From positions 1-41,698 of the forward strand of contig JAUNSH010000022.1 in NCBI GenBank assembly GCA_030539285.1: a stretch of DNA of 41,698 nucleotides, written 5' to 3'. The notes under the pieces were generated by a model. The model made no database searches and was not told the DNA's origin. It saw nothing but the letters and a program-made list of their open reading frames with translations. This DNA comes from Eubacteriales bacterium (lineage in GTDB: Bacteria; Bacillota; Clostridia; Oscillospirales; Oscillospiraceae). Numbering within the stretch: the stretch's first letter is position 1; every line of letters begins with the position of its first letter. The position numbers and the translations under genes were made by a program. Positions 6,592 through 41,698 of this stretch are shown one piece after another.

Positions 6592-6602
6592 CAACTTATT
6601 CA

Positions 6603-6632
6603 TTGGACTTTTGTGCAATTTCCCGTTATACT
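6603..6632 (+). promoter_or_regulatory. Candidate promoter of the AI-2E family gene
   Basis: TTGGAC (6603-6608) and TATACT (6627-6632) with an 18-base spacer lie just upstream of the GTG start at 6654. Confidence 0.5.
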
Positions 6633-6653
6633 GTAGGAAAAGGGGGAAATTCT

Positions 6654-7919: not shown

Positions 7920-7951
7920 GCAGACTGCGGAAAAACCCGCGATATCTGTAC

Positions 7952-8063
7952 CGTAGGGGCCGATGCCCACATCGGCCCGCGGTAAAAGCGTACGATGATT
8001 TCTCCAATCTTCGGCGAATTCGGAACACCTACGAAAGGGGCGATGTGGGCATCGCCCCCTACG
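7952..8063. repeat. MITE-like element with CGTAGGGG ends, second member
   Basis: The left end CGTAGGGGCCGATGCCCACA (from 7952) and the right end, which finishes CATCGCCCCCTACG (to 8063), form terminal inverted repeats of about 27 bases with two mismatches. The outer CGTAGGG/CCCTACG is shared with the element at 2549-2699, while the inner palindrome differs. No coding content is inside. It lies between the convergent AI-2E and DUF3006-like genes. Confidence 0.7.
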
Positions 8064-8085
8064 AATTGCTTTTTTAACACGCAGA

Positions 8086-8112
8086 AATCCGCTGACGAAA
8101 TGTCAGCGGATT
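8086..8112. terminator. Hairpin between convergent genes
   Basis: An 11-base-pair perfect stem AATCCGCTGAC (8086-8096) / GTCAGCGGATT (8102-8112) with loop GAAAT is followed on the plus strand by CTTTTAT. It probably ends transcription from both sides, but the T tract is short. Confidence 0.6.
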
Positions 8113-8115
8113 CTT

Positions 8116-8271
8116 TTATACCTGTGTAAACTCGTAATTTTCGAATTTCAGCACATCGCCCACGTCCACGCCGAAGGGCAGCAGGGCAATGGCCACCTCG
8201 GAGACAACGCCGGTGTCGTGGTATTTGACGTATGCGTAGTCGCCCCGAATATCGATGATGGTGCACAGCAT
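8116..8271 (-). CDS. Small DUF3006-like protein
   Basis: This 51-residue acidic protein was found by reading the minus strand behind nifJ. It starts MLCTIIDIRGDYAYVKY and ends FENYEFTQV. The pattern of a short beta-rich start, then LLPFGVDVGDVLKF, resembles the small DUF3006 family, whose members carry a similar LP..V..GDVL motif; the function is unknown. The ATG at 8271 has a good ribosome site, AGGAGG, seven bases upstream. It lies downstream of nifJ on the same strand, separated by a terminator, so it may be expressed by readthrough. The family assignment is from memory of the motif and is tentative; the reading frame itself is well supported. Confidence 0.65.
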   Translation of the reverse strand: MLCTIIDIRGDYAYVKYHDTGVVSEVAIALLPFGVDVGDVLKFENYEFTQV

Positions 8272-8287
8272 GGTTCATCCTCCTTTT

Positions 8288-8320
8288 AAGAAATTCGCCC
8301 CCGGTCTCCCGGGGGCGAAT
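8288..8320 (-). terminator. Terminator of nifJ
   Basis: A perfect 12-base-pair palindrome ATTCGCCCCCGG-TCTC-CCGGGGGCGAAT (8293-8320) is followed on the minus strand by TTTCTT. It ends just before the ribosome site of the DUF3006-like gene. Confidence 0.85.
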
Positions 8321-8349
8321 ATTAGGTTAGGGGAGAGAGATACAGGGAA

Positions 8350-26590: not shown

Positions 26591-27933
26591 ATGAAAAAGA
26601 TCATCGCTTTCCTGCTCGTCACCTGTATGTGTCTGGGCATGGCTGCCTGCGGCGGCAGCGCTGCTCCTGCCGCTCCCGCTGCCACTGAGGCTGTGCAAAA
26701 AGCACCCGAAGGAACCACGGCTGCGGCCCCCGCTCAGAGTGTCACCCTGAACGTTGTCACCTCCTACGGCGGCGACGACGGCAACCGCAAGAACTTCGAG
26801 AATGCTGTGGCTGCCTATGAGGCATCCACCGGCAACAAGGTCAACGACGGCTCCGCCACCTCTAACGAGGAGTGGAAGGCCAAGGTTCTGACGGACTTTG
26901 AGACCGGCTCCGAGCCGGATGTCCTGTTCTTCTTCACCAACGCCGACAGCGAACCTATTGTGGACGCTGGCAAGGTAGTTTCCATTGAGGAGATCCGCTC
27001 CGTTTATCCCGACTACGCCTCCAATATGAAGGATTTCATGATGGCAATCGCTGCCGACGGCAAGCACTATGCGGTGCCCTCCGCCGGCTTCTGGGAGAAT
27101 ATGTTTGTCAACAAGGCGGTGCTGGATGCCTGCGGCGTGGCAGTCCCCGGCCCCGATTATACCTGGGATCAGTTCCTGACTGCCAGACTATCAAGGACAG
27201 CGGCTATACCCCCATCGCCTGCTCCCTGTTTGAGGTTCCCCACTACTGGTTTGAGTTTGCTGTTATGAACAACGGCTCTCTGGAGAACCAGCTGGAGGTG
27301 CCCATGCTGGATGCAAACGGCAAACTGGTAGACGACGCTGTATCCCAGAAGTGGATCGCCGCTCTGGAAGATATCAAGTCTCTGTATGAAGCCGGGTACT
27401 TCCCCGACAACACCCTGACCGCAACCGATGCGGAGACCGTGGCCCTGTTCGGCGAAGGCGAAGCGGCCTTCCTGATCGACGGCTCCTGGAAGTGCGGCTA
27501 CTTCGCTGAAAACCATGCCGGTAATCTGGAAGACTATGTGGTCTGCTGTGTCCCTGGTAAGGGCAACCGTCCTGCTACCGATGCCATCGGCGGTATCTCC
27601 ATGGGCTATTTCATCACCCGCAAAGCCTGGGAGGATCCTGCCAAGCAGGCTGCCGCTGTGGAATTCGTGTTCCAGCTCACCGGTGATGAGACGCTGAGCA
27701 CCTTCGTTACCACCGAGGTCACCGCCCTGAAGAACGGTGCGTCTCCCAGCGGTCTGAATGCCATTCAGCAGTCTGCTGCTGAGTGCAACGCCAACATTAC
27801 CGGCGTTGTGGGCGCTGTTCAGGACACCATCACCGCCGAAGCAAAGGGTGACCTGTTTGCCAACGTGCAGAAGGTCGTGGCCGGTCAGATGACCGCTGCC
27901 GAGGCTGTGGAATCCGCTATGAAACTCAACTGA
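26591..27933 (+). pseudogene. Sugar ABC transporter substrate-binding lipoprotein, frameshifted
   Basis: Two frames together make a normal extracellular solute-binding protein of about 447 residues (SBP_bac_1 type). The signal peptide MKKIIAFLLVTCMCLGMAAC has its lipobox Cys at residue 20. The first frame runs to about 27180 (YTWDQFLT) and the second continues at 27181 (CQTIKDSGYTPIACSLFEVP), so one base is missing near 27180. After the break the protein is intact to its end at 27933. A short product ending at 27268 would be non-functional. It could also be a sequencing error. The following genes encode matching permeases, and no ATPase gene is present, as is usual for MsmK-sharing systems. 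Confidence 0.8.
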
Positions 27934-27955
27934 TTGTACATCTTTTTCCTCCGGG

Positions 27956-27980
27956 GGGCTGCTGCCATAAGCAGCAGCCC
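27956..27980 (+). terminator. Intercistronic hairpin after the binding-protein gene
   Basis: A perfect ten-base-pair stem GGGCTGCTGC / GCAGCAGCCC with loop CATAA is followed by TTTCC. Such hairpins behind binding-protein genes commonly reduce permease expression. Confidence 0.7.
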
Positions 27981-28012
27981 TTTCCATACTCCAATAAAAG
28001 GATGGTGCGGCC

Positions 28013-28939
28013 ATGAGCTCCATGATCTACAAGAAAAAAACGCCGCTGCTGCTGTTCCTGATACCGGCTTTTGCGTTCCTGATCGTCTATCTGTATTATC
28101 CCTTCCTGTAAAACATTCTGAATACTTTCCTGAATATTGGCGGCTTGGGCCGTGCCGCGGAGGGTGTCAATGACCCGTGGTACGAAAACTATCGACGCTT
28201 AGTCACAGACCCGGATCTGCGCACCGCTCTGAAAAACACGGTGCTGCTGACGGTGTGCACGGTGGTATTTCAGGTGGGCATTGCCCTGATCCTGGCCCTG
28301 CTGGTGGACTCCATCCGGGTAGGTGCCAAAGTGTTCCGCACCGTCTACTTTTTCCCCATCGTTATTTCCGCAACGGCGCTGGGCCTCATGTTTAATCTGA
28401 TGTTCCTGTATAAGGGCGGCATGGTCAACCAGCTCCTGCTGAATATGGGACTGTTGGAATCGTAGATCAAGGCCAGCGGAAAAGTGATCGTTCAGTGGCT
28501 GGACTGGAAGGATGAGAACCACTTCCTGTTTACTATGTTCCTGCCGGTGATTTGGCAGTATGTGGGCTTCTATTTCGTCATCCTCATTACGGGACTGAAT
28601 AACATCCCCGATGACCTGTTTGAAGCGGCGGCGCTGGACGGCGCTTCCGGGCTGAAAAAAGTCCGCTATATCACCCTGCCCATGCTGCGTAATGTACTGT
28701 GTACCTGTCTGGTGCTGGCGATTAACGGCGCACTGAAGGTCTTTGACCTGCCCTGGGTCATGTTTGGCGCGGGAATGCCCCAGAACCAGGGCTGGCTCAC
28801 AGGAACCTATATGTACGATCAGACCTTCAACAAAATGAACGTAGACTACGGCAGCACAATTGCCGTTCTCATCGTGGTGCTGGGCGTAGTGCTGTCCAAT
28901 GCGGCAAACCGGGTGTTCAAAACCACGGAAGATTATTGA
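28013..28939 (+). pseudogene. Sugar ABC permease (MalF/UgpA-like) with two in-frame stops
   Basis: A single 309-codon frame encodes a complete permease of about 308 residues, interrupted by TAA at 28109-28111 (after LYYPFL) and TAG at 28463-28465 (after MGLLES). The frame continues unbroken on both sides, with hydrophobic helices throughout and the ATPase-contact EAA loop FEAAALDGASGLKKVRYITL. The first stop stands where Gln (CAA) is plausible and the second where CAG is plausible, consistent with two C-to-T transitions. Other genes here end normally with TAA and TAG, so recoding is unlikely. The start is at 28013 behind AAAGGATG. Confidence 0.8.
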
Positions 28940-28950
28940 GGAGGACAGAT

Positions 28951-29670
28951 ATGGTTGAAAAGAAACGATCCCACGGCAGAGTACTGACCTATCTGGTACT
29001 GGGCCTGTGGGCTCTGAAGACGGTCTACCCCTTTCTCTGGGTGATCCTTAATTCCTTCCGGCAGAAGGGCATGATGTTCCCGGTGTTTTCCACCATCATC
29101 CCGGTGTTTCGGATGCAGGTGGTCATGGGCATTGCGGAAAAAGGCAACCGCTGGCTGAGTCTGCTGGCAACGATCCTGCCTCAGATTGCCGGAAACCTTT
29201 GCTTTGCCATTATCATCCTCACCGGCTTTATCCAGTCGGTACCTATTGAACTGGAGGAAAGCGCCTACTTAGACGGCTGTAATGTCTTCCATATCTTCTT
29301 CCGGATCATTGTCCCCGCGGCAAAGTCCTCCTTTGCTACTGTGGCGATTTTCGCCTTCCTGTGGAGCTACAATGATCTGTTTACCCAGTCTTTCTTCCTG
29401 CGTTATCCCCAGGAACGGGCCATTACCGGCCTGCTCAACGAGATCAGCTCCCAGGCTGGTGTCAACTATGGCTTGATGGCGGCATCGGTGGTGCTGGTGG
29501 TGGTTCCTGTGCTGATCGTCAATGTGTGTCTGCAAATGTCTACCGCCATGTTCTCCAAACGGGAAAAACGCAGATCATCTATGAGCCGGGCAGGGAAGAG
29601 GTCTGTCAGGCATGTCCGCACCGCTTTGACTGCCAGGAGGAAATCGAGATTTCCATGCCTGTGCGGATGA
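28951..29670 (+). pseudogene. Sugar ABC permease (MalG-like), internally deleted and C-terminally fused
   Basis: The frame starts at an ATG (28951) with GAGGAGG upstream and reads MVEKKRSHGRVLTYLVLGLW, a normal first helix. At about 29070 the sequence jumps from NSFRQKGM directly to MFPVFSTIIPVFRM; from family knowledge about 70-80 residues (extracytoplasmic loop and the next helices) are missing, in frame. The EAA loop LEESAYLDGCNVFHIFFRII is intact. At about 29538 (VNVCLQ) similarity ends and the frame reads an unrelated tail to 29670, because the sequence has joined the sigma-54 activator gene in another frame. It is unlikely to work. Confidence 0.75.
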
Positions 29671-31157
29671 GCGACGAAGTGATTGGGATTATCGGTTTGG
29701 TGGGAACCTCCCGGGAACAGAAAAATCGGATTCTGGAGAGCGAGAAGCTGTACATGGATTTTCTGGGGCAGATTGCGGAATTCATATCTGCCAAGGCTCA
29801 GGAATATGTCTCACAGGAAAGCAGAGCTGCCATGCTGGGAGCGTTAAACTGCACCATGGATTATATTACACAGGGCGTGATGATTCTGGGCAGAGACGGA
29901 ACGGTGACTGCGGCCAACGAAACGGCCAGGCAACAGCTGAAAATTCCTCAGCCGGAAGGCCTGCAGGTGCAGATCCAGGCAACCGGTGACCATCTGAATA
30001 ACAACAATGAATATACCCTGAACATTGGAGAACGACGCTATACGGTGATGGGGCAGCTCCACAGTCTTCCCCAGACGACCAAACGCTATGCGGAGGTGCT
30101 GCTGTTCCAGAGCAGCAAGAGCGTTCAGAAACTCCTGTACGAAATGACTTCCACAGTTCAGACCATGAGCTGTCGGAATATCATTGGGGACAGCCCCCAA
30201 ACTCGACAACTGAGACAGGACATTCAGAAGGTGGCCCAGAGTACCTCCACAGTGCTGATCACGGGAGAAAGCGGAACCGGAAAGGAAATGGTAGCGACTG
30301 CCATTTGGAATGCCAGTGACCGGAAAGACCGAAAATTTGTGGCGCTCAACTGCGCGGCAATTCCCGAGGCGCTTTTGGAGTCGGAGCTGTTTGGCTATGT
30401 GAAGGGGGCGTTTACAGGCGCAGACCCGAACGGACGAATCGGAAAGTTTGAACTGGCCAATAAAGGCGTGATATTTCTGGATGAGATCGGAGATATGCCC
30501 CTTTATCTTCAGGCAAAGCTGCTTCGCGTGCTTCAGGAACGAAAAATCGTGCGGATCGGCTCCAATCAGCTGATTCCCATAGACGTTCGTGTTTTGGCGG
30601 CAACCAATAAGGACTTGAAGGAAATGATTCGGGAAAAGAAATTCCGGGAAGATCTGTACTATCGTCTGAACGTGATCCCGCTAGAAATCGCGCCGCTTCG
30701 GGAGCGCAGAGAGGATATCGAGGAACTGACGCTGCACTTTGCCAGGCGGTACGCCCAGCTGTTCAAGAAGGATTTTTGGAAAATTACCGATGATGTCATG
30801 GAGCGGCTGAAAAGTTATGAATGGAAGGGAAATGTCCGGGAGCTGGAAAATGTAACAGAGTTTATGGTGAACATGATGGGACCTAATGGAATTCTGGACG
30901 ACAGCACCCTGCCCAGAGAGCTGCGATGCATCCAATCGGTGGGTCAGAAGCCACAGATCCAGCAGCATGAGACCTCTGTCGTGCAGGAGGAAGCCATCCT
31001 CCCGCTGAAGGAACTGGAGCAACGGGAGATTCGGCGTGCATTGATAAAGCATGGGACAACCACCCAAGGGAAAAAGGCAGCGGCGAGGGAACTGGGGATC
31101 GGCCTTGCCACACTCTACAGGAAGCTGGATGAAATCGAAAAGGGATTATCAAATTGA
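29526..31157 (+). CDS. Sigma-54-dependent transcriptional activator, N-terminally truncated
   Basis: This is a 543-residue bacterial enhancer-binding protein as read. An N-terminal sensory part (about 1-110) has the Cys motif VCQACPHRFDC; a PAS-like segment covers about 110-200. The AAA+ domain follows with Walker A GESGTGKE near 247, the sigma-54 contact motif GAFTGA at 294-299 and Walker B VIFLDEIGDM. A Fis-type helix-turn-helix ends the protein (KKAAARELGIGLATLYRKL). Homologues as remembered carry roughly 50-60 more residues before YRHVLQTGKTQIIYEPG; here that part is replaced by the end of a permease gene. The GTG at 29526 lacks a clear ribosome site. It is positioned like E. coli ygeV relative to ygeX-ygeY and should control dpaL. 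An N-terminal truncation might leave it inactive or constitutive. Confidence 0.82.
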   Translation: MSANVYRHVLQTGKTQIIYEPGREEVCQACPHRFDCQEEIEISMPVRMSDEVIGIIGLVGTSREQKNRILESEKLYMDFLGQIAEFISAKAQEYVSQESRAAMLGALNCTMDYITQGVMILGRDGTVTAANETARQQLKIPQPEGLQVQIQATGDHLNNNNEYTLNIGERRYTVMGQLHSLPQTTKRYAEVLLFQSSKSVQKLLYEMTSTVQTMSCRNIIGDSPQTRQLRQDIQKVAQSTSTVLITGESGTGKEMVATAIWNASDRKDRKFVALNCAAIPEALLESELFGYVKGAFTGADPNGRIGKFELANKGVIFLDEIGDMPLYLQAKLLRVLQERKIVRIGSNQLIPIDVRVLAATNKDLKEMIREKKFREDLYYRLNVIPLEIAPLRERREDIEELTLHFARRYAQLFKKDFWKITDDVMERLKSYEWKGNVRELENVTEFMVNMMGPNGILDDSTLPRELRCIQSVGQKPQIQQHETSVVQEEAILPLKELEQREIRRALIKHGTTTQGKKAAARELGIGLATLYRKLDEIEKGLSN

Positions 31158-31202
31158 GAACAATTTCTCAATGCAAGAAATCTCATAACGAGAAATATTC
31201 TC
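31153..31202. promoter_or_regulatory. Candidate activator-binding sites (enhancers)
   Basis: ATTGAGAA-N4-TTCTCAAT (31153-31172, eight-base perfect arms) and GAGAA-N3-TTCTC (31190-31202) share the half-site TTCTC. The centres are about 33 bases apart, close to three helical turns. They lie about 130-180 bases upstream of the -24 element, the usual enhancer distance. The first overlaps the stop codon of the activator gene. Confidence 0.65.
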
Positions 31203-31218
31203 AAAATAAGAATTAACA

Positions 31219-31265
31219 GGCGGCACAGATGCGGGATCTACCGAATTGTGCCGTCCATTTTTTGT
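31219..31265 (+). terminator. Terminator of the activator gene
   Basis: The stem CGGCACA (31221-31227) / TGTGCCG (31247-31253) is followed by TCCATTTTTTG. It separates the activator from the sigma-54 promoter. Confidence 0.75.
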
Positions 31266-31330
31266 TCACCTTTTCCAAATTAGAATTGAAATAATTGTGC
31301 AAAAAGTAAAACAATTGGAATAAAGAAAAA

Positions 31331-31347
31331 TGGGAACGAATCTTGCA
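31331..31347 (+). promoter_or_regulatory. Sigma-54 (-24/-12) promoter of the dpaL operon
   Basis: TGGGAACGAATCTTGCA has GG at 31333-31334 and GC at 31345-31346 with exactly ten bases between them, the invariant spacing of sigma-54 promoters, and TTGCA at the -12 side. Transcription would begin about 12 bases after the GC, leaving a leader of about 30 bases before the ATG at 31390. Confidence 0.8.
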
Positions 31348-31389
31348 CTTTAATAGGGCAGAAACAAAAACAGGAAAGGACAATGACTT

Positions 31390-32589
31390 ATGAAAGATGA
31401 ATTCAAACTGGTAACCCGGCAGCATACCGGGCAGGGCTGTGATCTTCAATTTCTGAGCGAAGAAGAAGCCCGTAAGATACGCAGGTTCCATGAAAGCTTT
31501 CCCATGTACAAGCCTACGCCTCTGGCACACCTGCCGGAAACGGCAAAATGCCTTGGACTGAAGGATGTATATGTCAAGGATGAGTCCTACCGCTTCGGCC
31601 TGAACGCTTTTAAGGTGCTGGGCGGCAGCTTCGCCATTGGCAGCTATCTGGCGCAGAAACTGGGAAAGGATATCAGCCGAGTGGGCTATCCCGAGCTGGT
31701 TTCCCCCGAAACCAAGGAAAAGCTGGGGGATGTTACCTTCGTTACCGCAACCGATGGAAACCACGGCAGAGGCGTTGCCTGGACTGCCAATCAGTTCAAA
31801 TTAAAATCTGTGGTGTATATGCCTAAGGGCAGCGCTGCGGAACGTCTCAACAACATCCGGGCGGAAGGTGCTGAGGCAAGCATCACTGATTTGAACTATG
31901 ACGAAGCGGTTCGTCTGGCAAACAGTCAGGCGGAAACCAAGGGCTGGGTCATGGTGCAGGATACCGCTTGGGAGGGCTACGAAGATATCCCAACTTGGAT
32001 CATGCAGGGCTACGGCACCATGGGCCTGGAGGCTTACGAGCAAATTCCAGAAAAGCCCACCCACATTTTCCTGCAGGCGGGGGTAGGCTCCATGGCCGGT
32101 GCCATTACCGGACTGTTCTCTTCCATTTACGGAGAAGACCGTCCCATCATCACCATTGTGGAGCCAAACAAGGCCGACTGCCTGTTCCGCACGGCACAGG
32201 CCAACGATGGCAAACGTCACTTTGTCACCGGTGATATGGATACCATCATGGCAGGTCTTGCCTGCGGCGAACCCTGCAGCATCGGCTGGAACATTCTGGC
32301 GGACTATGCAGACCACTTCATTTCCTGCCCGGATTACGTTGCCGCAAAGGGTATGCGTATTCTCGGCAATCCCGCAGGACACGATGAACGGGTGGTTTCC
32401 GGCGAAAGCGGCGCGGCATCCTTTGGATGCGTGGCGGAGATTATGACAAATCCGGAGCTGGCACATATCAAGGAAACTCTGGGTCTGAACGAAACCTCCC
32501 GGGTGCTGTTCTTCAGCACCGAGGGAGATACCGACCGGGAGAATTACAAGTCCATCGTCTGGGACGGCAAGTATCCCAGCACCCGCTGA
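31390..32589 (+). CDS. dpaL: Diaminopropionate ammonia-lyase
   Basis: This 399-residue fold-type II PLP enzyme (YgeX family) cleaves 2,3-diaminopropionate to pyruvate and two ammonia; it accepts both stereoisomers and also D-serine weakly in characterised homologues. The PLP lysine is K75 in GLNAFKVLGGS, matching the E. coli enzyme. The glycine-rich phosphate loop is QAGVGSMAGAITG and VTATDGNHGRGVAW is the asparagine-loop block. The ATG at 31390 follows AGGAAAGGA. It is the first gene of a five-gene operon behind the -24/-12 promoter; the same dpaL-ygeY order occurs in E. coli next to the sigma-54 regulator ygeV. Confidence 0.93.
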   Translation: MKDEFKLVTRQHTGQGCDLQFLSEEEARKIRRFHESFPMYKPTPLAHLPETAKCLGLKDVYVKDESYRFGLNAFKVLGGSFAIGSYLAQKLGKDISRVGYPELVSPETKEKLGDVTFVTATDGNHGRGVAWTANQFKLKSVVYMPKGSAAERLNNIRAEGAEASITDLNYDEAVRLANSQAETKGWVMVQDTAWEGYEDIPTWIMQGYGTMGLEAYEQIPEKPTHIFLQAGVGSMAGAITGLFSSIYGEDRPIITIVEPNKADCLFRTAQANDGKRHFVTGDMDTIMAGLACGEPCSIGWNILADYADHFISCPDYVAAKGMRILGNPAGHDERVVSGESGAASFGCVAEIMTNPELAHIKETLGLNETSRVLFFSTEGDTDRENYKSIVWDGKYPSTR

Positions 32590-32627
32590 ATGTAAAAAAG
32601 AAAAATTGAAATACAGGAGGAAAAACC

Positions 32628-33812
32628 ATGCTTAGCAAAGAAAGACAGGAACAGGCTGTAGCGCTGTGTCAGGAGCTGATCCGGCAGCAGAGCTACTCCG
32701 GACATGAGGACGGTGTCGTGAAGGTGCTCAGTGAGCACCTGAAGGCGGAGGGCTTTGATGAGGTTACCGTGGACAAGTACGGCAACATCATCGGCTGCAT
32801 TAAGGGCAGCCGCCCTGGCAAGAAGCTCCTCTTTGACGGACACATCGATACGGTGCCCGTGTCCGATGAGACGGAATGGCAGTATCCCCCCTTTGCCGCA
32901 GAGATCCACGACGGTAAGATCTACGGCCGTGGGACCAGCGACATGAAGGGCGCTGTGGCCGGTTTCGTGACAGCAGCTGCCGCCTTCGCCAAGGACACCG
33001 GCAAGGATTTCGCCGGTGAGATCTATGTCGCTGGCGTTGTCCACGAGGAGTGCTTTGAGGGTGTTGCTGCCCGGGAGATCAGCAGCTTTGTGAAGCCTGA
33101 CTACGTGGTTATTGGTGAGGCGTCCCAGCTGAATATCAAAATTGGCCAGCGGGGCCGGGGTGAGATTGTGGTGGAGACATTCGGCGTTCCCTGCCGCTCC
33201 GCCAACCCGGAAAAGGGTGTCAACGCGGTCTACATGATGGCGAAGGTTATCGAGGCCATCCGTACTCTGGTGCCGAACCATCATCCTGTTCTGGGCGACG
33301 GAATTCTGGAACTGACCGATATCAAGTCCGCTCCCTATCCCGGCGCTTCTGTAGTGCCGGAGTACTGCCGCGCGACTTATGACCGCCGCCTGCTGGTGGG
33401 AGAAACCAAGGAAAGCGTGCTGAAGCCCATTCAGGAGCTGCTGGACAAGCTGATGGCGGAGGATCCGCAACTGAAGGTGAAGGTTTCCTACGCGGTCGGC
33501 AGGGAGAAGTGCCACACCGGTGCGGAAATCACCGGCGAGCGGTTCTTCCCCGGCTGGCTGTATGATGAGAACGACGGGTTTGTTCAGGAAGTGAAGCAGG
33601 AGCTGGAGTCTATGGGCTACGGCCCCGCGATTACCCAATACAATTTCTGTACCAATGGAAGCCATTACGCCGGTGAGGCAGGCATCAAGACCTTCGGTCT
33701 CGGCCCCTCCAAGGAAAATCTGGCACATACCGTCAACGAGTATATCGAGATCGACCAGCTGGTAAAGGTCACCGATTGCTACTATGGTGTCATGAAGGCT
33801 CTGCTGAAGTAA
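32628..33812 (+). CDS. ygeY: YgeY family M20 metallohydrolase
   Basis: This 394-residue M20 zinc peptidase/deacylase (family described as putative selenium-metabolism hydrolase YgeY) has a catalytic metal His in FDGHIDTVPV. The shared metal Asp is in GRGTSDMKGA and the catalytic Glu pair in VVHEECFEG. The dimerisation insert lies between about residues 175 and 290. The M20 family hydrolyses small peptides, N-acyl amino acids or carbamoyl compounds; YgeY's own substrate is not established. Being next to dpaL it may release diaminopropionate or a related amino acid. The gap to dpaL is 38 bases, with AGGAGG before the ATG. Confidence 0.88.
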   Translation: MLSKERQEQAVALCQELIRQQSYSGHEDGVVKVLSEHLKAEGFDEVTVDKYGNIIGCIKGSRPGKKLLFDGHIDTVPVSDETEWQYPPFAAEIHDGKIYGRGTSDMKGAVAGFVTAAAAFAKDTGKDFAGEIYVAGVVHEECFEGVAAREISSFVKPDYVVIGEASQLNIKIGQRGRGEIVVETFGVPCRSANPEKGVNAVYMMAKVIEAIRTLVPNHHPVLGDGILELTDIKSAPYPGASVVPEYCRATYDRRLLVGETKESVLKPIQELLDKLMAEDPQLKVKVSYAVGREKCHTGAEITGERFFPGWLYDENDGFVQEVKQELESMGYGPAITQYNFCTNGSHYAGEAGIKTFGLGPSKENLAHTVNEYIEIDQLVKVTDCYYGVMKALLK

Positions 33813-33852
33813 TTTCGAAATAAAGAAAGAAGATAGAAAGGACGTATTTTTT

Positions 33853-35325
33853 ATGACAAGCAAACAGTTAACGGCACTGGTCATCATTTTCCTGTACATG
33901 GTCCTGACTGTGGTGGTCGGCCTGGTCTCTTCCAAACGCAAGCAGGCCAAGAAGGCACAGCAGAGCAACGACGACTTCCTGATGGCAGGCAAGTCTCTTG
34001 GCCCTCTGGTGCTGGCAGGTACTCTGTTCGCCGCCAACACCGGCGGTGCCTCCACCACCGGCATTGCTACCAATGTCTATAGCTACGGCCTGTCCGCAGC
34101 CTGGTATGTGATCGCCGCAGGCATTGGCTTCGTGCTGGTATCCTTTATCGCTCCCTACTTCCGCAAGGCTCAGGCCAGCACCGTTCCTCAGATCATCAGC
34201 AAGCGTTACGGCAAGGCCTCCCACATTTTTACCGCCTTTACCTCCATCGCCGCCCTGTTTATGGCCACCGGCGCGCAGATCATCGCTACCGCATCCATCA
34301 TTAACGTGGTCACCGGCCTGTCTTTCAAGACGGCTGCCGTAATTATCACCGTGGTGGTTATCGCTTATACCATGGTCGGCGGCTTCGCCAGCGTGGCAGC
34401 GGCAAACCTGATGCACGTTCTGTTCATCACTGTAGGCATGACCATTGCTATGTTCGTCATGGTGGGCAATGAGGCCGTTGGCGGCTTTGCTGCCCTGTTC
34501 AGCAAGGCTGCCGCTGTTACCGATGCCAACGGCGTCAACATGGATCTGCTGAGCATGACTAAGGTGGGCGTTCCCACCATTATCGGCTACATTGCCATGT
34601 ACTTCATGACCTTCCCCACCGGTCAGGAGATCGTGCAGACCTATTGCTCTGCCAAGGACGGCAAGTCTGCCAAAGTTGGTTCCGTGATCGCCGGTCTGCT
34701 GTCTGCCGTTTACGCCATTGTCCCCGCCATCATCGGTCTGGTTGCCTATGTCTGTATCGATGGCTACGCCGTCAGCGCCCAGAAGAATGCACTGGCTGAC
34801 GCTACCATGACCTTTGCCCCCGCTATTGTGGCTGGCATTGTGCTGGCAGCGGTGGTTGCAGCGACCATGAGCTCTGCCTCCGGCAACATGATCGGTACTG
34901 CCACCATGTTCACCAACGATGTGTTCCGCCCCTACATCAACGGCGGCAAGCAGGATGACAAGAAGGAAATCTGGATCTCCCGGGTGGTCATGGTTGTGGT
35001 CGGCGCAGTTGGTCTGACCGTTGCCCTCACCGCCTCCAACATCATCAGCGTGATGATGGGCGCCTTTGCCCTGCGCAGCGCCGGCCCCTTCGCCGCTTTC
35101 ATCTGCGGCCTGTTCTATAAGAACGTCACCCAGAGAGCCGGTTTTATCTCTATCGTCGCCGGTACAGTCGTTGCCGCAATCTGGATCTATGTGCTGGGCA
35201 CCCCCTGGGGGCTGAGCGCCATGGTTCCCGGCGGTATCGTGGCTCTGGTCACCATTTTCGCGATCTCTGCCATTGACCGCAAGCTGGCGTTGCCCCCGCT
35301 CCCGAGCTGGAACTGGAATAATTGA
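33853..35325 (+). CDS. Sodium:solute symporter (SSS family)
   Basis: This 490-residue polytopic membrane transporter of the SSS/PutP superfamily has about 13 hydrophobic helices. The sodium-site helix AGTLFAANTGGASTTGIATN is near residues 56-75, and FPTGQEIVQTYCSAKDGKSA is a conserved loop. Solute-binding specificity cannot be read directly. Its place in the operon suggests uptake of the amino-acid-like substrate degraded by DpaL, YgeY or the deacylase. No N-terminal signal beyond the first helix. The ATG at 33853 follows GAAAGGA. A strong hairpin follows its stop. Confidence 0.88.
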   Translation: MTSKQLTALVIIFLYMVLTVVVGLVSSKRKQAKKAQQSNDDFLMAGKSLGPLVLAGTLFAANTGGASTTGIATNVYSYGLSAAWYVIAAGIGFVLVSFIAPYFRKAQASTVPQIISKRYGKASHIFTAFTSIAALFMATGAQIIATASIINVVTGLSFKTAAVIITVVVIAYTMVGGFASVAAANLMHVLFITVGMTIAMFVMVGNEAVGGFAALFSKAAAVTDANGVNMDLLSMTKVGVPTIIGYIAMYFMTFPTGQEIVQTYCSAKDGKSAKVGSVIAGLLSAVYAIVPAIIGLVAYVCIDGYAVSAQKNALADATMTFAPAIVAGIVLAAVVAATMSSASGNMIGTATMFTNDVFRPYINGGKQDDKKEIWISRVVMVVVGAVGLTVALTASNIISVMMGAFALRSAGPFAAFICGLFYKNVTQRAGFISIVAGTVVAAIWIYVLGTPWGLSAMVPGGIVALVTIFAISAIDRKLALPPLPSWNWNN

Positions 35326-35335
35326 AGAAAACTAC

Positions 35336-35364
35336 TCCCTGTGACCTGAAAATGGTCACAGGGA
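35336..35364 (+). promoter_or_regulatory. Intercistronic hairpin
   Basis: An 11-base-pair perfect stem TCCCTGTGACC / GGTCACAGGGA with loop TGAAAAT lies between the symporter and deacylase genes. There is no T tract, so it is more likely an RNA-stability or processing element than a terminator. Confidence 0.6.
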
Positions 35365-35389
35365 ACCGGATAAAGAAAGGAATTGCCTT

Positions 35390-36994
35390 ATGAAAAAACT
35401 GATTCGCGGCGGTCTGGTGGTTGACGGCACCGGCAAGCCCGGTTACAAAGCAGACGTTCTGGTTGAAAACGACAGAATCGTAAAAATCGGCGAAATCGAT
35501 GCCGCTGGAGATATGGAAGTGACCGAAGCTGCCGGACTGGTAGTTGCCCCCGGCTTCATCGATACCCACAGCCACAGCGATTTGCAGATCTTGGTGGAGC
35601 CTGAGGTTCAGCCCAAGGTGCGGCAGGGCATCACCACGGAGGTTCTGGGTCAGGACGGCATCTCTATGGCGCCCCTGCCCAAACAGTACATCAGCCCCTG
35701 GCGGAAGAACCTGGCCGGTCTGGACGGCGACACCGACGCCATCGACTGGGGATTTGAGACCACCGAAAACTATCTGAAAATGCTGGAAACGGTCCATCCC
35801 GGCCTGAACGAATGCTATCTGGTGCCCCACGGCAACATCCGTATGGAGGCCATGGGTCTGGAGAACCGTCTGCCTAACGAGGAAGAGCTGGAGAAAATGC
35901 GCCAGATCACTCGTCGGGAGATGGAGGCCGGCGCCATTGGCCTGTCTACGGGCCTCATCTATATGCCTTGCGCTTACTCCGAGTCCAAAGAAATCATTGA
36001 AATGTGCAAGATCGTGGCGGAGTACGACGGACGCTTTGTCATCCACCAGAGAAGCGAGGCCGATACCATTCTGGATTCCATGGAGGAGGTCATCAAGATC
36101 GGCAGAGAGTCCGGTGCCAAGATCCACTATTCCCACTTTAAGGTTTGCGGCAAGAAGAACTGGGATAAGATCGAGGATGTGATCCGCCTGCTGGAACAGG
36201 CTAAGGCCGAGGGTATCGATGTGTCCTTCGATCAGTATCCCTATGTTGCCGGCAGCACTATGCTGGGTGTCATTCTGCCGCCCTGGGTGCATGACGGTGG
36301 CACGGATAAGGTGCTGGAACGTTTGGCAGACCCCGAGCTGCGCAAGAAGATGATCTACGACATTGAGCACGGCATCCCCGGCTGGGACAATTTTGTAGAG
36401 TTTGCCGGTCTGGACGGCATCTATGTCACCAGCGTCAAGAACGAGAAGAACAAGGATGCCATCGGCCTGAACCTAACCCAGTTGGGTCAGCTCCGGGGCA
36501 AGGATGCCTACAACGCTACCTTTGACCTGCTGTATGAGGAGGAGAACGCCGTGGGCATGGTGGACTTCTATGGTACTGAGGAACACGTTCAGCTGTTTAT
36601 GAAGCGTCCTGAGATGAACGCCTGCACCGATGGCCTGCTGGGCGGCAAGCCCCATCCCCGTGTGTTTGGTGCCTTCCCACGGATCTTGGGCAAGTACGTC
36701 CGGGAGGATAAGGCTCTGACTCTGGAGGAGGCTATCTACAAAATGACTAAGAAGCCTGCCACGGCCTTCAATATGACCGATCGGGGCGAACTGCGGGAAG
36801 GTGCCTACGCGGATATCACTATCTTTGATCCCAACACTGTTATCGACAAGGGCACCTTCACCGACCCCATTCAGTATCCCGAAGGCATCGTCCATGTGAT
36901 GATCAACGGCGAATTCGCGGTGAAGAACGGCGAGCATACCGGCACCCGCAGCGGCGTGGTGCTGAGAAAGAAAGGTACGGAGGTTGTCAGATAA
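35390..36994 (+). CDS. N-acyl-D-amino-acid deacylase (D-aminoacylase) family amidohydrolase
   Basis: This 534-residue protein of the amidohydrolase superfamily removes acyl groups from D-amino acids, or related N-acyl compounds. The metal motif HSHSD (FIDTHSHSDLQ) is near residue 60. Other family blocks are STGLIYMPC, the SHFKVCGKK histidine and the late CTDGLLGGKPHPR, in which Asp is the usual catalytic acid. The length is in the normal range of 480-535. A true D-aminoacylase and a dihydroorotase-like enzyme cannot be told apart from the sequence alone, but the operon argues for amino-acid release. The ATG at 35390 follows AAAGGAA. Its stop overlaps the ridA start by one base. Confidence 0.85.
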   Translation: MKKLIRGGLVVDGTGKPGYKADVLVENDRIVKIGEIDAAGDMEVTEAAGLVVAPGFIDTHSHSDLQILVEPEVQPKVRQGITTEVLGQDGISMAPLPKQYISPWRKNLAGLDGDTDAIDWGFETTENYLKMLETVHPGLNECYLVPHGNIRMEAMGLENRLPNEEELEKMRQITRREMEAGAIGLSTGLIYMPCAYSESKEIIEMCKIVAEYDGRFVIHQRSEADTILDSMEEVIKIGRESGAKIHYSHFKVCGKKNWDKIEDVIRLLEQAKAEGIDVSFDQYPYVAGSTMLGVILPPWVHDGGTDKVLERLADPELRKKMIYDIEHGIPGWDNFVEFAGLDGIYVTSVKNEKNKDAIGLNLTQLGQLRGKDAYNATFDLLYEEENAVGMVDFYGTEEHVQLFMKRPEMNACTDGLLGGKPHPRVFGAFPRILGKYVREDKALTLEEAIYKMTKKPATAFNMTDRGELREGAYADITIFDPNTVIDKGTFTDPIQYPEGIVHVMINGEFAVKNGEHTGTRSGVVLRKKGTEVVR

Positions 36995-37368
36995 TGAAAG
37001 AAATCATTGCAACGAAAAGCGCGCCCGGGGCGGTCGGACCTTATGTACAGGCAATTAAGGCAAACGGCATGGTTTACTGCTCCGGTCAGCTTGGCATTGA
37101 CCCCACCACAGGAAAAATGCCTGCAACCGTAGAAGAGCAGGCTCACTTCTCTATGAAAAACTTGGGCGCAATTCTCACAGAAGCCGGTTCCGGATATGGC
37201 AATGTGGTAAAAACCACCATTTTTCTGGCGGATATGAACGATTTTGCCAAAGTCAATGAGATTTACAAATCCTATTTTGGTACAGACTTCCCCGCACGGT
37301 CCTGCGTGCAGGTCGCCAAGCTACCCCTGGGCGGCTTGGTGGAAGTGGAGTGCATCGCAATCGCCTGA
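36994..37368 (+). CDS. ridA: RidA family reactive imine/enamine deaminase
   Basis: This 124-residue trimeric cytoplasmic enzyme hydrolyses 2-aminoacrylate and related imines to keto acids and ammonia. The N-terminus SAPGAVGPYVQAIKANGMVYCSGQL and the C-terminal PARSCVQVAKLPLGGLVEVE are family signatures, with the substrate-binding Arg in PARSCV. It starts at the A of the preceding TAA (TAATG), so translation is coupled. The role fits: DpaL produces 2-aminoacrylate, which damages PLP enzymes if not removed. It is the last gene of the operon. Confidence 0.93.
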   Translation: MKEIIATKSAPGAVGPYVQAIKANGMVYCSGQLGIDPTTGKMPATVEEQAHFSMKNLGAILTEAGSGYGNVVKTTIFLADMNDFAKVNEIYKSYFGTDFPARSCVQVAKLPLGGLVEVECIAIA

Positions 37369-37390
37369 TTCACAGATTACCTTCCATATA

Positions 37391-37424
37391 GGAAAGGCCG
37401 CCGGAACATTCCGGCGGTCTTTCC
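37391..37424. terminator. Bidirectional terminator between ridA and rpoN
   Basis: GGAAAGGCCGCCGGAA-CA-TTCCGGCGGTCTTTCC is a 16-base-pair stem with one wobble, serving the convergent ridA and rpoN transcripts. Confidence 0.85.
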
Positions 37425-37425
37425 G

Positions 37426-38736
37426 TTATTTACTATATTTCCGACGGACTCCAGCGCCGGGAATGTTCAGGTTTTCCCGATACTTGCTCACCATGCGGCG
37501 GGAGATGGAGAAACCTTCCCCGGTAAGAGCGTCACACAGAGCCTGATCGGAGAGAGGGCGACGTTTGTCCTCATTCTCAACCAGCTTGCGGATCTGGTGG
37601 CAAATTTCATCCCGCTGAGCCAGTCCCTGGGAAAAAAAGTGCTGCAGGGGAAATATACCCCAGGAACACTGCAGGTATTTTCCGCGAAGGGCGCGGCTGA
37701 CTGTGGATTCATGCACGTTCAGAAGCTCAGCGGCCTCTGCCTGTGAAAAAGCGCGAAGATTGCCGGGACCACGGAGGAAGAAGCCGCTTTGTGTCTCAAG
37801 AATGAGGTTCCCAAGGGACAGAAGCGTCTGTTTTCTCTGGACAATGCACTGCCGCACCCATTCCAGCTGATTTTACTTCTGTTCCAGGTAGGCGGCAGTT
37901 TCCGCATCGCAATCGTGAAGCATTTGTAGATAAGAACTGTTAATCTGCACTGAAAGCGGCTGCGTTTCATTTAATGTCACGTGAAAACGACCGTTTTCCT
38001 GAAACACAAGCAGCTCCGGGACGATGTAGGATACACAATTTCCATCGCTGTAGCCGGCTCCAGGGCGGGGGTTTAAGCTGCGGATGATTTCGCAAGCGTG
38101 CAGGATCTCGTTGAGAGGCCTGTGAAGTTTCCTTGCCAATACTGGAAGTTGGTTCTTTCCGAGTAAAACCAGCTCATTTTCAGCAATTTTTGCAGCGGTC
38201 TGTTCTTCGGGATAGAGCCGTTGAAGTTGGATACAAAGGCACTCACTCAAATTCCGTGCGCCGACACCATAGGGTTCCATATCTTGCAAAATTGCCAATG
38301 CGTCAGAAACTGCGTCCTCTTTGCAGTCAAGGACAAGCCGGATGTTCTCTTTGGACACGGATAGGTAGCCATTGGCATCCAGATTATAGATCATGTATAT
38401 CAGAATGCGCCGTATGTCAGGACCTAAAACCATGCCCCCAAGTTGAAACATAAGGGCGTCTGACAGAGTGCCGGTTTGTCCAGAATCCCAAACCTCCCGG
38501 GAATCCGCCTGCTCCTGCCGGTCGTAAACATAGTTTTGCTCATCTGGCTCAGATACGCTTTCCTTCACATATGCATTTGGAGTCGTTTGCTGGATAAATT
38601 CCATAAGGGGATTTTCTAATGCAAGGTCTTCGAGATAATGGCGTAATTCTGCTGTACTTAATTGGAGAACGTGAGCAGACTGAATCATCTTTTGAGATAT
38701 TGTCTGCTTGATTGCCTGATTCAACTGTACCTTCAC
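37426..38736 (-). pseudogene. rpoN: RNA polymerase sigma-54 factor with an in-frame stop
   Basis: One 437-codon frame covers a complete RpoN of normal length. Region I (activator contact) begins VKVQLNQAIKQTISQKMIQS. Core-binding and helix-turn-helix parts follow, and the C-terminal RpoN box is SRRMVSKYRE. A TAA at 37873-37875 on the minus strand interrupts it after AAYLEQK, at residue 288. The same frame continues NQLEWVRQCIVQRKQTLL without loss. Family alignments usually have a hydrophobic residue such as Leu there, and TTA to TAA is a single change. The start is GTG at 38736 with GGGGGAA upstream. As read it would lack the DNA-binding domain; a sequencing error is possible. Confidence 0.8.
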
Positions 38737-38773
38737 AACGTTCCCCCTTACACCATTATCAGAATACGTCAAT

Positions 38774-38802
38774 ATTATACCAAAAAGTACAGAATTTTAC
38801 AA
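38774..38802 (-). promoter_or_regulatory. Promoter of rpoN
   Basis: On the minus strand TTGTAA (38802-38797), a 17-base spacer and TATAAT (38779-38774) lie 37 bases upstream of the GTG start. Confidence 0.7.
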
Positions 38803-39638: not shown

Positions 39639-40592
39639 TCAAAACAGGTGACAGGCCACTTCGTGCCCTTCGCCGATGGTCTTCAGCTTCGGATGCTCAC
39701 GGCGGCACCGCTCGGTGCAGTATTCGCACCGGGGCTGGAAGGGACATCCGGGGGGAACATCCAGAGGACTGGGAATTTCACTGTCAATGCTTTCAATTTT
39801 TTTGCTGAAATCCATTTTCGTGTCAAAAATCGCCCCCAGCAGGGCCTGGGTATAAGGATGCCGGGCCTTTTCTACATCCTCACCGGGCAGAATTTCCACG
39901 ATATTGCCCAGGTACATCACGGCGATCTGGTGGGCAAAGGACTGGATGAGCCCCAGATCGTGGGCAATAAAGCCGATGGCGATATTTTTCTCCTTCTGAA
40001 GCTTGCAGACCAGCTCAATAATGGTTTTCTGCACCGACACATCCAGGGCACAGGTGGCCTCGTCCATGATGATCAGCTCCGGCTCTAGGGCGATGGCCCG
40101 GGCAATGGCGATCCGCTGCCGCTGGCCACCGGACATGCTGTGGGGGAACCGGTCGGCAAAATCTCCGGGCAGCTCCACGGCTTCCAGATACTTCCGGGCA
40201 ACGGCATCCTTTTCGCTGGACTTGATCCTGCCAAAGTTCAGCAGCGGCTCACAGATAATGTCCCGGATCTTCATTTTGGCGTTGAAGGAGCTGCCGGGAT
40301 CCTGGAATACCATCTGGATGTACTGCCGGGTCTGCCGCAGCTCTTCGCCCTTCAGCTTGGTCAGATCTTTTCCCTTGAACAGGATCTCTCCCTCGGTGGG
40401 CTTGTCCAGCCGGACGAGGAAGCGCATGAAGGTGGATTTTCCGCAGCCGGATTCGCCGATCAGCCCCAGAGTTTTGCCCCTGTAGAATTTGAGACTGACA
40501 TCATTGCAGGCGGTCAGCTCCCGTCCGCCAGAGGCAGGGAACCGCCGGGTGACGTGCTTTGCTTCCAGGATCAGGTCTTTTTCATCAAACAT
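39639..40592 (-). CDS. Oligopeptide/nickel-type ABC transporter ATPase (OppF/DppF-like)
   Basis: This 317-residue ATPase energises import of peptides or nickel complexes. Walker A is GESGCGKST, the signature MSGGQRQRIAIARA and Walker B ELIIMDEATCALDVS. The C-terminal oligo_HPY region contains CPFQPRCEYCTERC, a four-Cys motif that in this family can bind an iron-sulfur cluster. The ATG at 40592 is chosen (GGGAGGTGA upstream); a longer frame lies within the preceding gene. It overlaps the OppD-like gene by eight bases. The transported substrate is not known. Confidence 0.9.
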   Translation of the reverse strand: MFDEKDLILEAKHVTRRFPASGGRELTACNDVSLKFYRGKTLGLIGESGCGKSTFMRFLVRLDKPTEGEILFKGKDLTKLKGEELRQTRQYIQMVFQDPGSSFNAKMKIRDIICEPLLNFGRIKSSEKDAVARKYLEAVELPGDFADRFPHSMSGGQRQRIAIARAIALEPELIIMDEATCALDVSVQKTIIELVCKLQKEKNIAIGFIAHDLGLIQSFAHQIAVMYLGNIVEILPGEDVEKARHPYTQALLGAIFDTKMDFSKKIESIDSEIPSPLDVPPGCPFQPRCEYCTERCRREHPKLKTIGEGHEVACHLF

Positions 40593-41367
40593 AGCGCTCA
40601 CCTCCCACAGAAGGAACGGCATCCAGAAGCTGCTGGGCATAGCAGCTGTGCTCCCCGCCGAGAAGCTGTTCCCGGGTGCCGGAATCCGTGATCTCGCCGT
40701 TCTTCATGACAACCAAAAAATCGGACATATAGGCCGCGACACCCAGATTGTGGGTGACCATGATGATGCTGGTGCCGTATTCGTCCCTCAGCTCCATCAT
40801 CTGCCGGACGATCTGTGCCTGAGTGGTCACATCCAGCGCGGAGGTGGGTTCATCCGCCAGCAGAAGCTTCGGCTCATAGATCATGGCCATGGCAATGCCC
40901 ACCCGCTGGCGCATACCGCCGGAGAGCTGAAAGGGATAGGAGTTCATGATGTTGTCCAGGTCTGCCAGCCGCATTCGTTCCAGCATTCCGGCACCCTTTT
41001 TCCATGCTTCCTTCCGGGAAATTTTTTCGTGAGTCCGAATGTATTCCGTAAATAGGCTTCCGATTTTTTTCGTGGGATTCAGCATGGCACCGGAGTCCTG
41101 AAAGATCATGGAGATATCCGTGCCCCGGAGACTGCGCCACTGCTCAGGCGTGTTTTGCAGCAGGGAGGTTCCCTCAAACAGGATATCGCCCTCGGTGACC
41201 TTTCCGCTGCCGGGAAGCAGTCCCAGCACAGCGCGAATGACGGTCGTCTTCCCGGAGCCGGATTCTCCGACAAGGGACACGATCTGCCCCTGTTCCAGCG
41301 TCAGGCTGAAATTTTTCACAGTGGGACGATCCTGATAGCAGACCGTCATATTCTTGATTTCCAGCAT
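40585..41367 (-). CDS. Oligopeptide/nickel-type ABC transporter ATPase (OppD/DppD-like)
   Basis: This 260-residue ATPase subunit, partner of the OppF-like protein, has Walker A GESGSGKTT near residue 36, signature LSGGMRQRVGIAMA and Walker B LLLADEPTSALDVT. It is shorter than OppD (about 330) because the C-terminal oligo_HPY extension is nearly absent, as in nickel-type NikD-like subunits. The ATG at 41367 follows GAGGAGGAG; the frame upstream is a shadow of the permease gene. Stop and start overlap with the next gene. Confidence 0.9.
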   Translation of the reverse strand: MLEIKNMTVCYQDRPTVKNFSLTLEQGQIVSLVGESGSGKTTVIRAVLGLLPGSGKVTEGDILFEGTSLLQNTPEQWRSLRGTDISMIFQDSGAMLNPTKKIGSLFTEYIRTHEKISRKEAWKKGAGMLERMRLADLDNIMNSYPFQLSGGMRQRVGIAMAMIYEPKLLLADEPTSALDVTTQAQIVRQMMELRDEYGTSIIMVTHNLGVAAYMSDFLVVMKNGEITDSGTREQLLGGEHSCYAQQLLDAVPSVGGERYV

Positions 41368-41377
41368 AGGCTCCTCC

Positions 41378-41698
41378 TCACTCCTCTCTGGGATCCAGAT
41401 AATCCCGGAACGCGTCACCCAGCAGGTTGAAGACCATCACCACCACGAAGATCGCGGCGCCGGGGAAAATCGTCATCCAGGGTGCGTTCTGAATGAACTG
41501 CCGGCCCTCGTTGAGCATCAGGCCCCATTCCGGGGTGGGCGCTTTGGCACCGAAGCCCAGGAAGGACAGACCCGCCAGCTCCAGCATCATGCCGCCGATG
41601 TCTGTCGCCGCGGTGATCACCAGCGTGGGAATCACGTTGGGAACCATGTATTTCCGCAGAATATAGGGGGTCTTGGAGCCGGTGACAATGGCCGCCGA
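41378..41698 (-). CDS. ABC transporter permease (OppC/DppC-like), partial
   Basis: This is the C-terminal ~106 residues of a binding-protein-dependent permease; the start lies beyond the right edge. Visible are the end of the EAA-type cytoplasmic loop (SAAIVTGSKTPYILRKYMVP), an inner helix VIPTLVITAATDIGGMMLEL, the family block LSFLGFGAKAPTPEWGLML and the last helix GAAIFVVVMVFNLLGDAFRD. The gene ends DPREE and is followed after ten bases by the OppD-like gene, so the minus-strand operon order is permease, ATPase D, ATPase F. Confidence 0.9.
   Translation of the reverse strand, partial: SAAIVTGSKTPYILRKYMVPNVIPTLVITAATDIGGMMLELAGLSFLGFGAKAPTPEWGLMLNEGRQFIQNAPWMTIFPGAAIFVVVMVFNLLGDAFRDYLDPREE

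Follow-up and report, generated by a model that had tools for sequence, protein, structure and literature searches.

The window analyzed here, a single 41,698-nt contig of a draft Eubacteriales genome (2.78 Mb in 98 contigs, 84.4% complete), contains a sigma-54-type gene module in which genes for DpaL, YgeY, an SSS-family symporter, an Amidohydro_3 protein and RidA follow one another on the + strand (31390-37368). This module is probably a transporter-fed catabolic system in which the final enzymes of the reductive urate pathway have been put to new use, and the gene content of the genome suggests that this gut bacterium feeds on an intermediate of that pathway, or on a similar compound, made by others.

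The original prediction, made from the sequence alone, had described five closely linked catabolic genes, and the family assignments and tight spacing of these + strand genes bore this out. The first, dpaL (ygeX; 31390-32589), encodes a 2,3-diaminopropionate ammonia-lyase that scored 648.9 bits against TIGR03528, above the equivalog cut-off of 532.25. It is followed by ygeY (32628-33812), whose product is an M20 hydrolase of a subfamily found with UacY-type proteins; it scored 510.2 bits against NF009555 (cut-off 321) and 257 bits against TIGR03526, under the cut-off of 321.5. Family searches further identified an SSS-family sodium:solute symporter as the putative substrate importer (33853-35325) and the enamine/imine deaminase RidA (36994-37368), and between them lies the gene for the Amidohydro_3 protein (35390-36994), which its family, motifs and tree position suggest to be UacY-type and presumably a 2-ureido hydrolase.

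In the reductive urate pathway as described by Li et al. (2025; PMC12507026), the enzymes are XdhD, YgfK or UacX, SsnA, HyuA, YgeW/UacY, YgeY and YgeX, the 2-ureido group being the target of YgeW or UacY and the 3-ureido group that of YgeY; the UacY assayed there was a D-aminoacylase homologue from C. difficile with the UniProt accession Q181U6, and the YgeY came from E. coli. According to a commentary (PMC12990295), it is disputed which of the two ureido groups is cleaved first. The UacY, YgeY and DpaL families correspond to the last three steps, and the DpaL, YgeY and Amidohydro_3 proteins of the window are related to them.

A D-aminoacylase-like protein in such a position could also be taken to indicate the use of N-acyl-D-amino acids, which the symporter would import, the D-aminoacylase would deacylate and DpaL would process by elimination of D-serine-like products. 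The best solved relatives of the deacylase are the D-aminoacylase 1m7j and its relatives, followed by the N-acyl-D-glutamate deacylase 3gip; they belong to the same family as the window protein and share its paired histidines and YPYVAGST motif. The window deacylase, however, is encoded together with YgeY and DpaL and has Asp where 1m7j has Cys, and QDG was found in 41/41 rows in place of the NCG of 1m7j, the Cys of which is a metal ligand. Its motifs are nearly the same as those of UacY-type proteins encoded beside SsnA, YgfK and HyuA (seven of the compared loci: L039, L046-L051), and in the deacylase tree 21 window-type rows, L030 included, stand beside seven SsnA-linked rows. The assignment of DpaL above the diaminopropionate equivalog cut-off, and the joining of a hydantoinase and an NCS1 permease to the module in loci L014 and L030, likewise argue against N-acyl-D-amino acids, and we regard this substrate class as decidedly unlikely. 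The name "D-aminoacylase" was accordingly rejected as settling the substrate, and the protein reads better as a UacY-type ureido-hydrolase. The original prediction had the deacylase and YgeY acting on an N-acyl or D-amino compound, which the active-site motifs do not support; its placing of DpaL and RidA as the final steps was retained.

To place the module among relatives, a collection holding one genome per species (84,980 species) was searched, which gave 163 DpaL relatives, and the best 80 loci were kept. The order activator-DpaL-YgeY-SSS-deacylase on one strand, with a symporter 76-86% identical to that of the window, was found at 25/80 dpaL loci; one of these, L014, has a pair of additional genes separating its activator from DpaL. 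A close symporter occurred in 26 loci, namely the 25 order-keeping ones and L031, which has no activator; a UacY-type protein and YgeY were present together in all 26, and RidA followed the deacylase in 14 of the 25. Within the range L009-L038, four loci fall outside the 26: L009 (short YgeY and deacylase open reading frames (ORFs), no SSS ORF), L025 (a 77-aa activator ORF, neither an SSS nor a deacylase ORF), L030 (NCS1 instead of SSS) and L036 (DpaL only). At L009 (11169-12685), the YgeY and deacylase ORFs, of 214 and 292 aa, abut without a symporter ORF, reflecting a collapse or a deletion. Among the matches listed in a search of the open-access literature, no title concerned a UacY-YgeY-DpaL locus without SsnA.

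Within the genus, the own genome was compared with 36 congeners. In two of these 37 genomes, dpaL (E<=1e-80) occurs together with the activator (E<=1e-20) and with a sigma-54 DNA-binding domain of full score, and none of the three was found at these thresholds in the other 35, of which 13 are at least 90% complete; one of the 35, G005, gave a weak partial sigma-54 match of 22-24 bits. The only congener with all three, G020, has two rpoN genes and was counted as one genome with that of L011 (identical places and scores). Since the window deacylase groups with that of Anaerotruncus L010, its nearest relative, and not with that of the congener L011 (95/96 in the deacylase tree), separate arrivals of the module within the genus are suggested.

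The control region of the operon was conserved as well. A -24/-12 sigma-54 promoter with the predicted GG-N10-GC spacing was confirmed at 31331-31347 (+), beginning 59 bases before the dpaL ATG and agreeing at 11 of the 13 specified positions with the sigma-54 consensus; the window has two further sites with a score of 11, one at 34433, within the symporter gene, and one at 9767. The significance of the promoter as estimated by single-letter shuffling is a weak control, and the contrast with loci L039-L053 is better evidence. An activator gene is present in 28/30 of the loci L009-L038 (in L025 as a 77-aa piece), and the window and all 28 of these loci have a GG-N10-GC site of at least 10/13 located 52 to 183 bases before dpaL, while no such site precedes dpaL in L031 and L036, which have no activator. 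In contrast, 15/15 of the loci L039-L053 score 9 or less or have no sigma-54 site upstream of dpaL. The possibility that such a promoter is exclusive to symporter-type loci was rejected, as sites of at least 11 also stand before dpaL elsewhere (e.g., L054, L071, L076, L077, L079, L083, L085 and L088); of these, L054, L071, L076, L085 and L088 carry an activator.

Within and around the 232-base spacer between activator and dpaL, the two palindromic sites of the original prediction were recovered as putative activator-binding sites. The first, ATTGAGAA-N4-TTCTCAAT at 31153-31172, overlaps the activator stop codon and is the only match in the window at up to three mismatches (0.18 expected); the second, CGAGAA-N3-TTCTCA at 31189-31203, has one mismatch. 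With at most one mismatch, TGAGAA-N2-8-TTCTCA was found in 20/27 loci against 0.51 expected from Markov resampling, and in none of eight activator loci outside the group; it was not found in L010, L021, L025, L034, L035, L037 and L038, and the count excludes L014 and L032, where over 1500 bases separate the activator and dpaL. Conservation of the promoter (28/28 sites), of the palindromes (20/27) and of gene order (25/80), on which the original prediction had made its case depend, was therefore found, and its view of a conserved sigma-54 catabolic module that has DpaL and RidA as its last steps and is arranged differently from the E. coli genes is supported by gene order and cis-elements.

The upper pathway was assessed by searching for SsnA in the genomes of 47 of the 80 loci, in the own genome (G000) and in G020, and additionally in those of L056, L062 and L067. 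No close-symporter genome of the 26 has SsnA above cut-off, and the best match in the own genome reached 143.6 bits against a cut-off of 455.5. SsnA above cut-off was found in 10/49 genomes, eight of which carry DpaL-YgeY-UacY urate loci, the other two being those of L043 and L087. Among the loci L039-L052 with DpaL-YgeY-UacY and neither SSS nor activator, SsnA was above cut-off in 8/10 tested genomes, and the remaining two, L040 and L041, encode SsnA-like proteins of 366-371 bits at the same locus. Outside these ten SsnA-linked loci, the genomes of L071, L082, L083 and L086 have no SsnA above cut-off (best 25-256 bits); the locus L086 nonetheless has an SsnA-like ORF and urate genes. YgfK was likewise above cut-off in 0/26 close-symporter genomes (G020 standing for L011), and none was found in the own genome at E<=1e-100; it exceeded the cut-off in 5/44 genomes searched, all of them SsnA-linked (5/7 SsnA-linked genomes), and two more SsnA-linked genomes gave partial matches of 511-611 bits. 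HyuA had no match in the own genome at E<=1e-60, and among the 26 it was above cut-off in G065 (inside the module, L014), G085 and G088, as it was in G081, the genome of L030.

A draw of 391 genomes of the class, own genome included, was then screened for deacylase relatives at E<=1e-130, which gave nine further relatives. The genomes of the three with an SSS gene beside the deacylase (50, 65 and 68% identity; genomes 96-99% complete) had no SsnA at E<=1e-60, and those of the four with YgeY, DpaL, SsnA, HyuA or Xdh-like genes beside it all had SsnA above cut-off. The remaining two, G241 and G192, were set aside as another family (42% identity, tandem copies; SsnA-like proteins of 217-227 bits).

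These results bear on the possibility that the organism degrades urate completely, the upper genes having fallen into assembly gaps or unrelated enzymes having taken their place. The own genome is 84.4% complete, UacX and XdhD were not searched, and L087 combines a related locus with SsnA in one genome, all of which would be in keeping with it. Against it stand the sub-threshold SsnA scores in 27/27 close-symporter genomes, own included, and the same absence in the three further, nearly complete genomes of the class draw, so that complete degradation appears very improbable.

Clues to the substrate came from variant loci. In L030 (C. symbiosum; 5784-8640), a hydantoinase that passes the TIGR02033 cut-off and an NCS1 permease separate YgeY from the deacylase, with no SSS gene present; in L014 (2654-5558), a hydantoinase, also above that cut-off, and an NCS1 permease lie between the activator and dpaL. 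The NCS1 proteins match general NCS1 and allantoin-permease models, all under cut-off. A sigma-54-like site (11/13) in L014 overlaps the opening codons of the called hydantoinase ORF; as residue 20 is the first to match the family, translation may in fact start downstream of the called position. In L071 and L083, an MFS transporter adjoins the same enzymes; L071, L082 and L083, from soil and Pelosinus genomes, have the arrangement DpaL-YgeY-UacY-RidA. Because the importers change before the same UacY-YgeY-DpaL set and a ring-opening hydantoinase appears in two loci, or three with L087, these variants point to ureides of diaminopropionate as the substrate.

The same variability of importers (SSS, NCS1, MFS), as though the feed varied, would suit a diet that supplies 2,3-diaminopropionate in some other conjugated form, for example as a plant amino acid of the albizziin or oxalyl-diaminopropionate type, on which enzymes of shifted specificity would act. 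Three loci, L056, L062 and L067, consist of DpaL-YgeY-RidA without UacY, and neither SsnA (E<=1e-60) nor YgfK (E<=1e-100) was found in their genomes; this composition is expected for a 3-ureido-only substrate, and these loci would fit a possible variant in which only the 3-nitrogen is blocked. However, the joint retention of the UacY-type protein and YgeY throughout the close-symporter loci suits a substrate blocked on both nitrogens, and such another conjugate is judged unlikely as the substrate of the module.

Several observations weigh against reading the module as a transporter-fed lower half of the urate pathway. The related locus L087 of Clostridium tetanomorphum, which keeps the module order with a symporter 50% identical to that of the window, RidA between activator and DpaL, and a hydantoinase, belongs to a genome with SsnA on another contig. 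Partial YgfK matches of 377-378 bits, under cut-off, were found in G088 and G089, and HyuA lies away from the module in G085 and G088 (2/26). The absence of the upper pathway covers SsnA, YgfK and HyuA, XdhD and UacX lying outside the search, and many of the compared genomes are drafts. On the side of the enzymes, the deacylases of L034, L035, L037 and L038, 57-58% identical to that of the window, are placed elsewhere on the tree; the UacY link is drawn through SsnA-linked homologues of 58-74% identity and not through the C. difficile UacY sequence; and the window YgeY is 32% identical to the assayed E. coli enzyme, the YgeY proteins of 13 loci with YgeW and E. coli-like YgeY being 59-75% identical to it. 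The activities of the module enzymes are assignments by family.

Taken with these reservations, the reading of the module as a lower urate pathway fed by a transporter would operate as follows. A YgeV-type activator would bind the TGAGAA/TTCTCA palindromes and switch on sigma-54 RNA polymerase at the dpaL promoter, as the motifs and their conservation suggest. The SSS symporter would import a 2,3-diaminopropionate that is substituted on nitrogen; a ureido compound, for instance 2,3-diureidopropionate, is the most likely candidate. By analogy with the enzymes assayed by Li et al. (PMC12507026), the UacY-type hydrolase would take off the 2-ureido group and YgeY the 3-ureido group. DpaL, assigned above its family cut-off, would convert the resulting diaminopropionate to pyruvate and ammonia. 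RidA, whose family clears 2-aminoacrylate, would remove the 2-aminoacrylate formed on the way. As the assembled genome lacks SsnA, YgfK and HyuA, an external supply of the substrate is expected, from urate-degrading neighbours or the diet.

The activator gene (29538-31157, +) encodes a sigma-54 enhancer-binding protein with AAA+ and Fis-type helix-turn-helix domains; its PF00158 domain scored 244.2 bits and the predicted GAFTGA motif was seen in the window ORF, in agreement with the original prediction. It is 36% identical to E. coli YgeV over 539 aligned positions. In a quick activator tree, the 25 order-keeping loci, L009, L030 and the window form a clade of 28 rows (SH-aLRT 96), the sister of which consists of activators of clusters with YgeW and SsnA (e.g., L054, L085 and L088). 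The ORF as called (29526-31157) has 543 aa against mostly 569-647 aa in relatives, and a start at 29526 was rejected, as homology begins only at about 29538-29541, matching residue 57-62 of relatives with short leaders and aligning from residue 58 of L028, L030 and L033. By this alignment, the window activator is without about 57 N-terminal residues; a search of the rest of the assembly did not recover the missing piece (best E = 0.37), and directly upstream, in another frame, lies coding sequence of an ATP-binding cassette (ABC) permease.

The rpoN gene, encoding sigma-54, lies on the - strand (38772-37426), convergent with the operon, and an in-frame TAA at 37873-37875 precedes its DNA-binding domain. 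This interrupted copy is the only sigma-54 gene found in the own genome; all other sigma-54 matches listed for the compared genomes have no internal stop. Within the fetched flanks, rpoN was present in 7/26 close-symporter loci, besides the window, upstream of the activator in L011-L013 and downstream in L018-L020 and L026. It is the sole sigma-54 match in six of these seven genomes, that of L011 having two, and the nearby rpoN genes fall in several lineages of a quick tree with long branches. On these grounds, rpoN was rejected as a constant part of the module. The original prediction had united activator, enhancers, promoter, operon and rpoN in one locus with rpoN at its end; all of this held except the completeness of the activator and the placement and regularity of rpoN, which adjoins ridA in the window, is convergent and interrupted there, and is not regularly near the module elsewhere. 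In the own assembly, a single strong activator match (247 bits) lies beside the operon, and three more matches reach 29-39 bits, of a kind also present in all 14 control genomes. With the sole strong activator match and the sole sigma-54 gene both adjoining the operon, the module could be viewed as a compact sigma-54 system.

For this contig only, the truncated activator and the stop in the only rpoN raise the possibility that the locus is decaying and its expression lost. Damage is also visible upstream (26591-29535), where an ABC sugar-type transporter is broken: its binding-protein gene is split into two ORFs, its first permease has an in-frame stop at 28463-28465, and its second permease extends as far as the point where it joins the activator. 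No damage is seen, however, in the five operon genes, the promoter or the palindromes, and the breaks may reflect draft-assembly errors, so decay is possible and somewhat doubtful; the defects of activator and rpoN may be assembly errors or real. Beyond rpoN, ABC transporter genes occupy the - strand at 39639-41698, including an ATPase with an oligo_HPY domain (39639-40640), and further ORFs of this apparent type extend to the window end.

The reductive urate clusters of C. difficile and E. coli described in PMC12507026 share DpaL/YgeX and a YgeY-family hydrolase with the window, which also has a putative UacY-type hydrolase and an activator related to E. coli YgeV; the window differs in having no SsnA above cut-off, no YgfK (E<=1e-100) and no HyuA (E<=1e-60) in its genome and in adding an SSS symporter, RidA and its own palindromes. 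The E. coli ygeV-ygeW-ygeX-ygeY-hyuA region (L089) likewise has a sigma-54 activator gene adjoining dpaL and ygeY; it differs by YgeW instead of UacY, another YgeY subfamily and upper-pathway genes nearby. The same unit of activator, promoter and upstream sites characterizes the sigma-54 regulons of Clostridiales (PMC6615313), the main text of which makes no mention of ammonia-lyase, purine, symporter, deacylase or symbiosum.

We tentatively propose, as an idea with rather less than even chances, that a guild of gut bacteria with no enzymes for attacking urate feeds on 2,3-diureidopropionate, or, where the hydantoinase and NCS1 permease are added, on ureidomethyl-hydantoin, released by urate degraders, and that bacterial families have come to share the module together with its sigma-54 switch, which in some genomes stands beside the only sigma-54 gene. 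Six marker genes, ygeX and ygeY among them, serve to find urate clusters in gut genomes (PMC12542679). Since genomes with the module hold both of these markers and neither SsnA nor YgfK above cut-off, rules leaning on ygeX and ygeY could miscount urate degraders. If the guild exists, gut urate breakdown would be a shared pathway; and should the substrate prove to be a urate intermediate, a usable product would leak from the first half of that breakdown, with a bearing on urate balance and gout.

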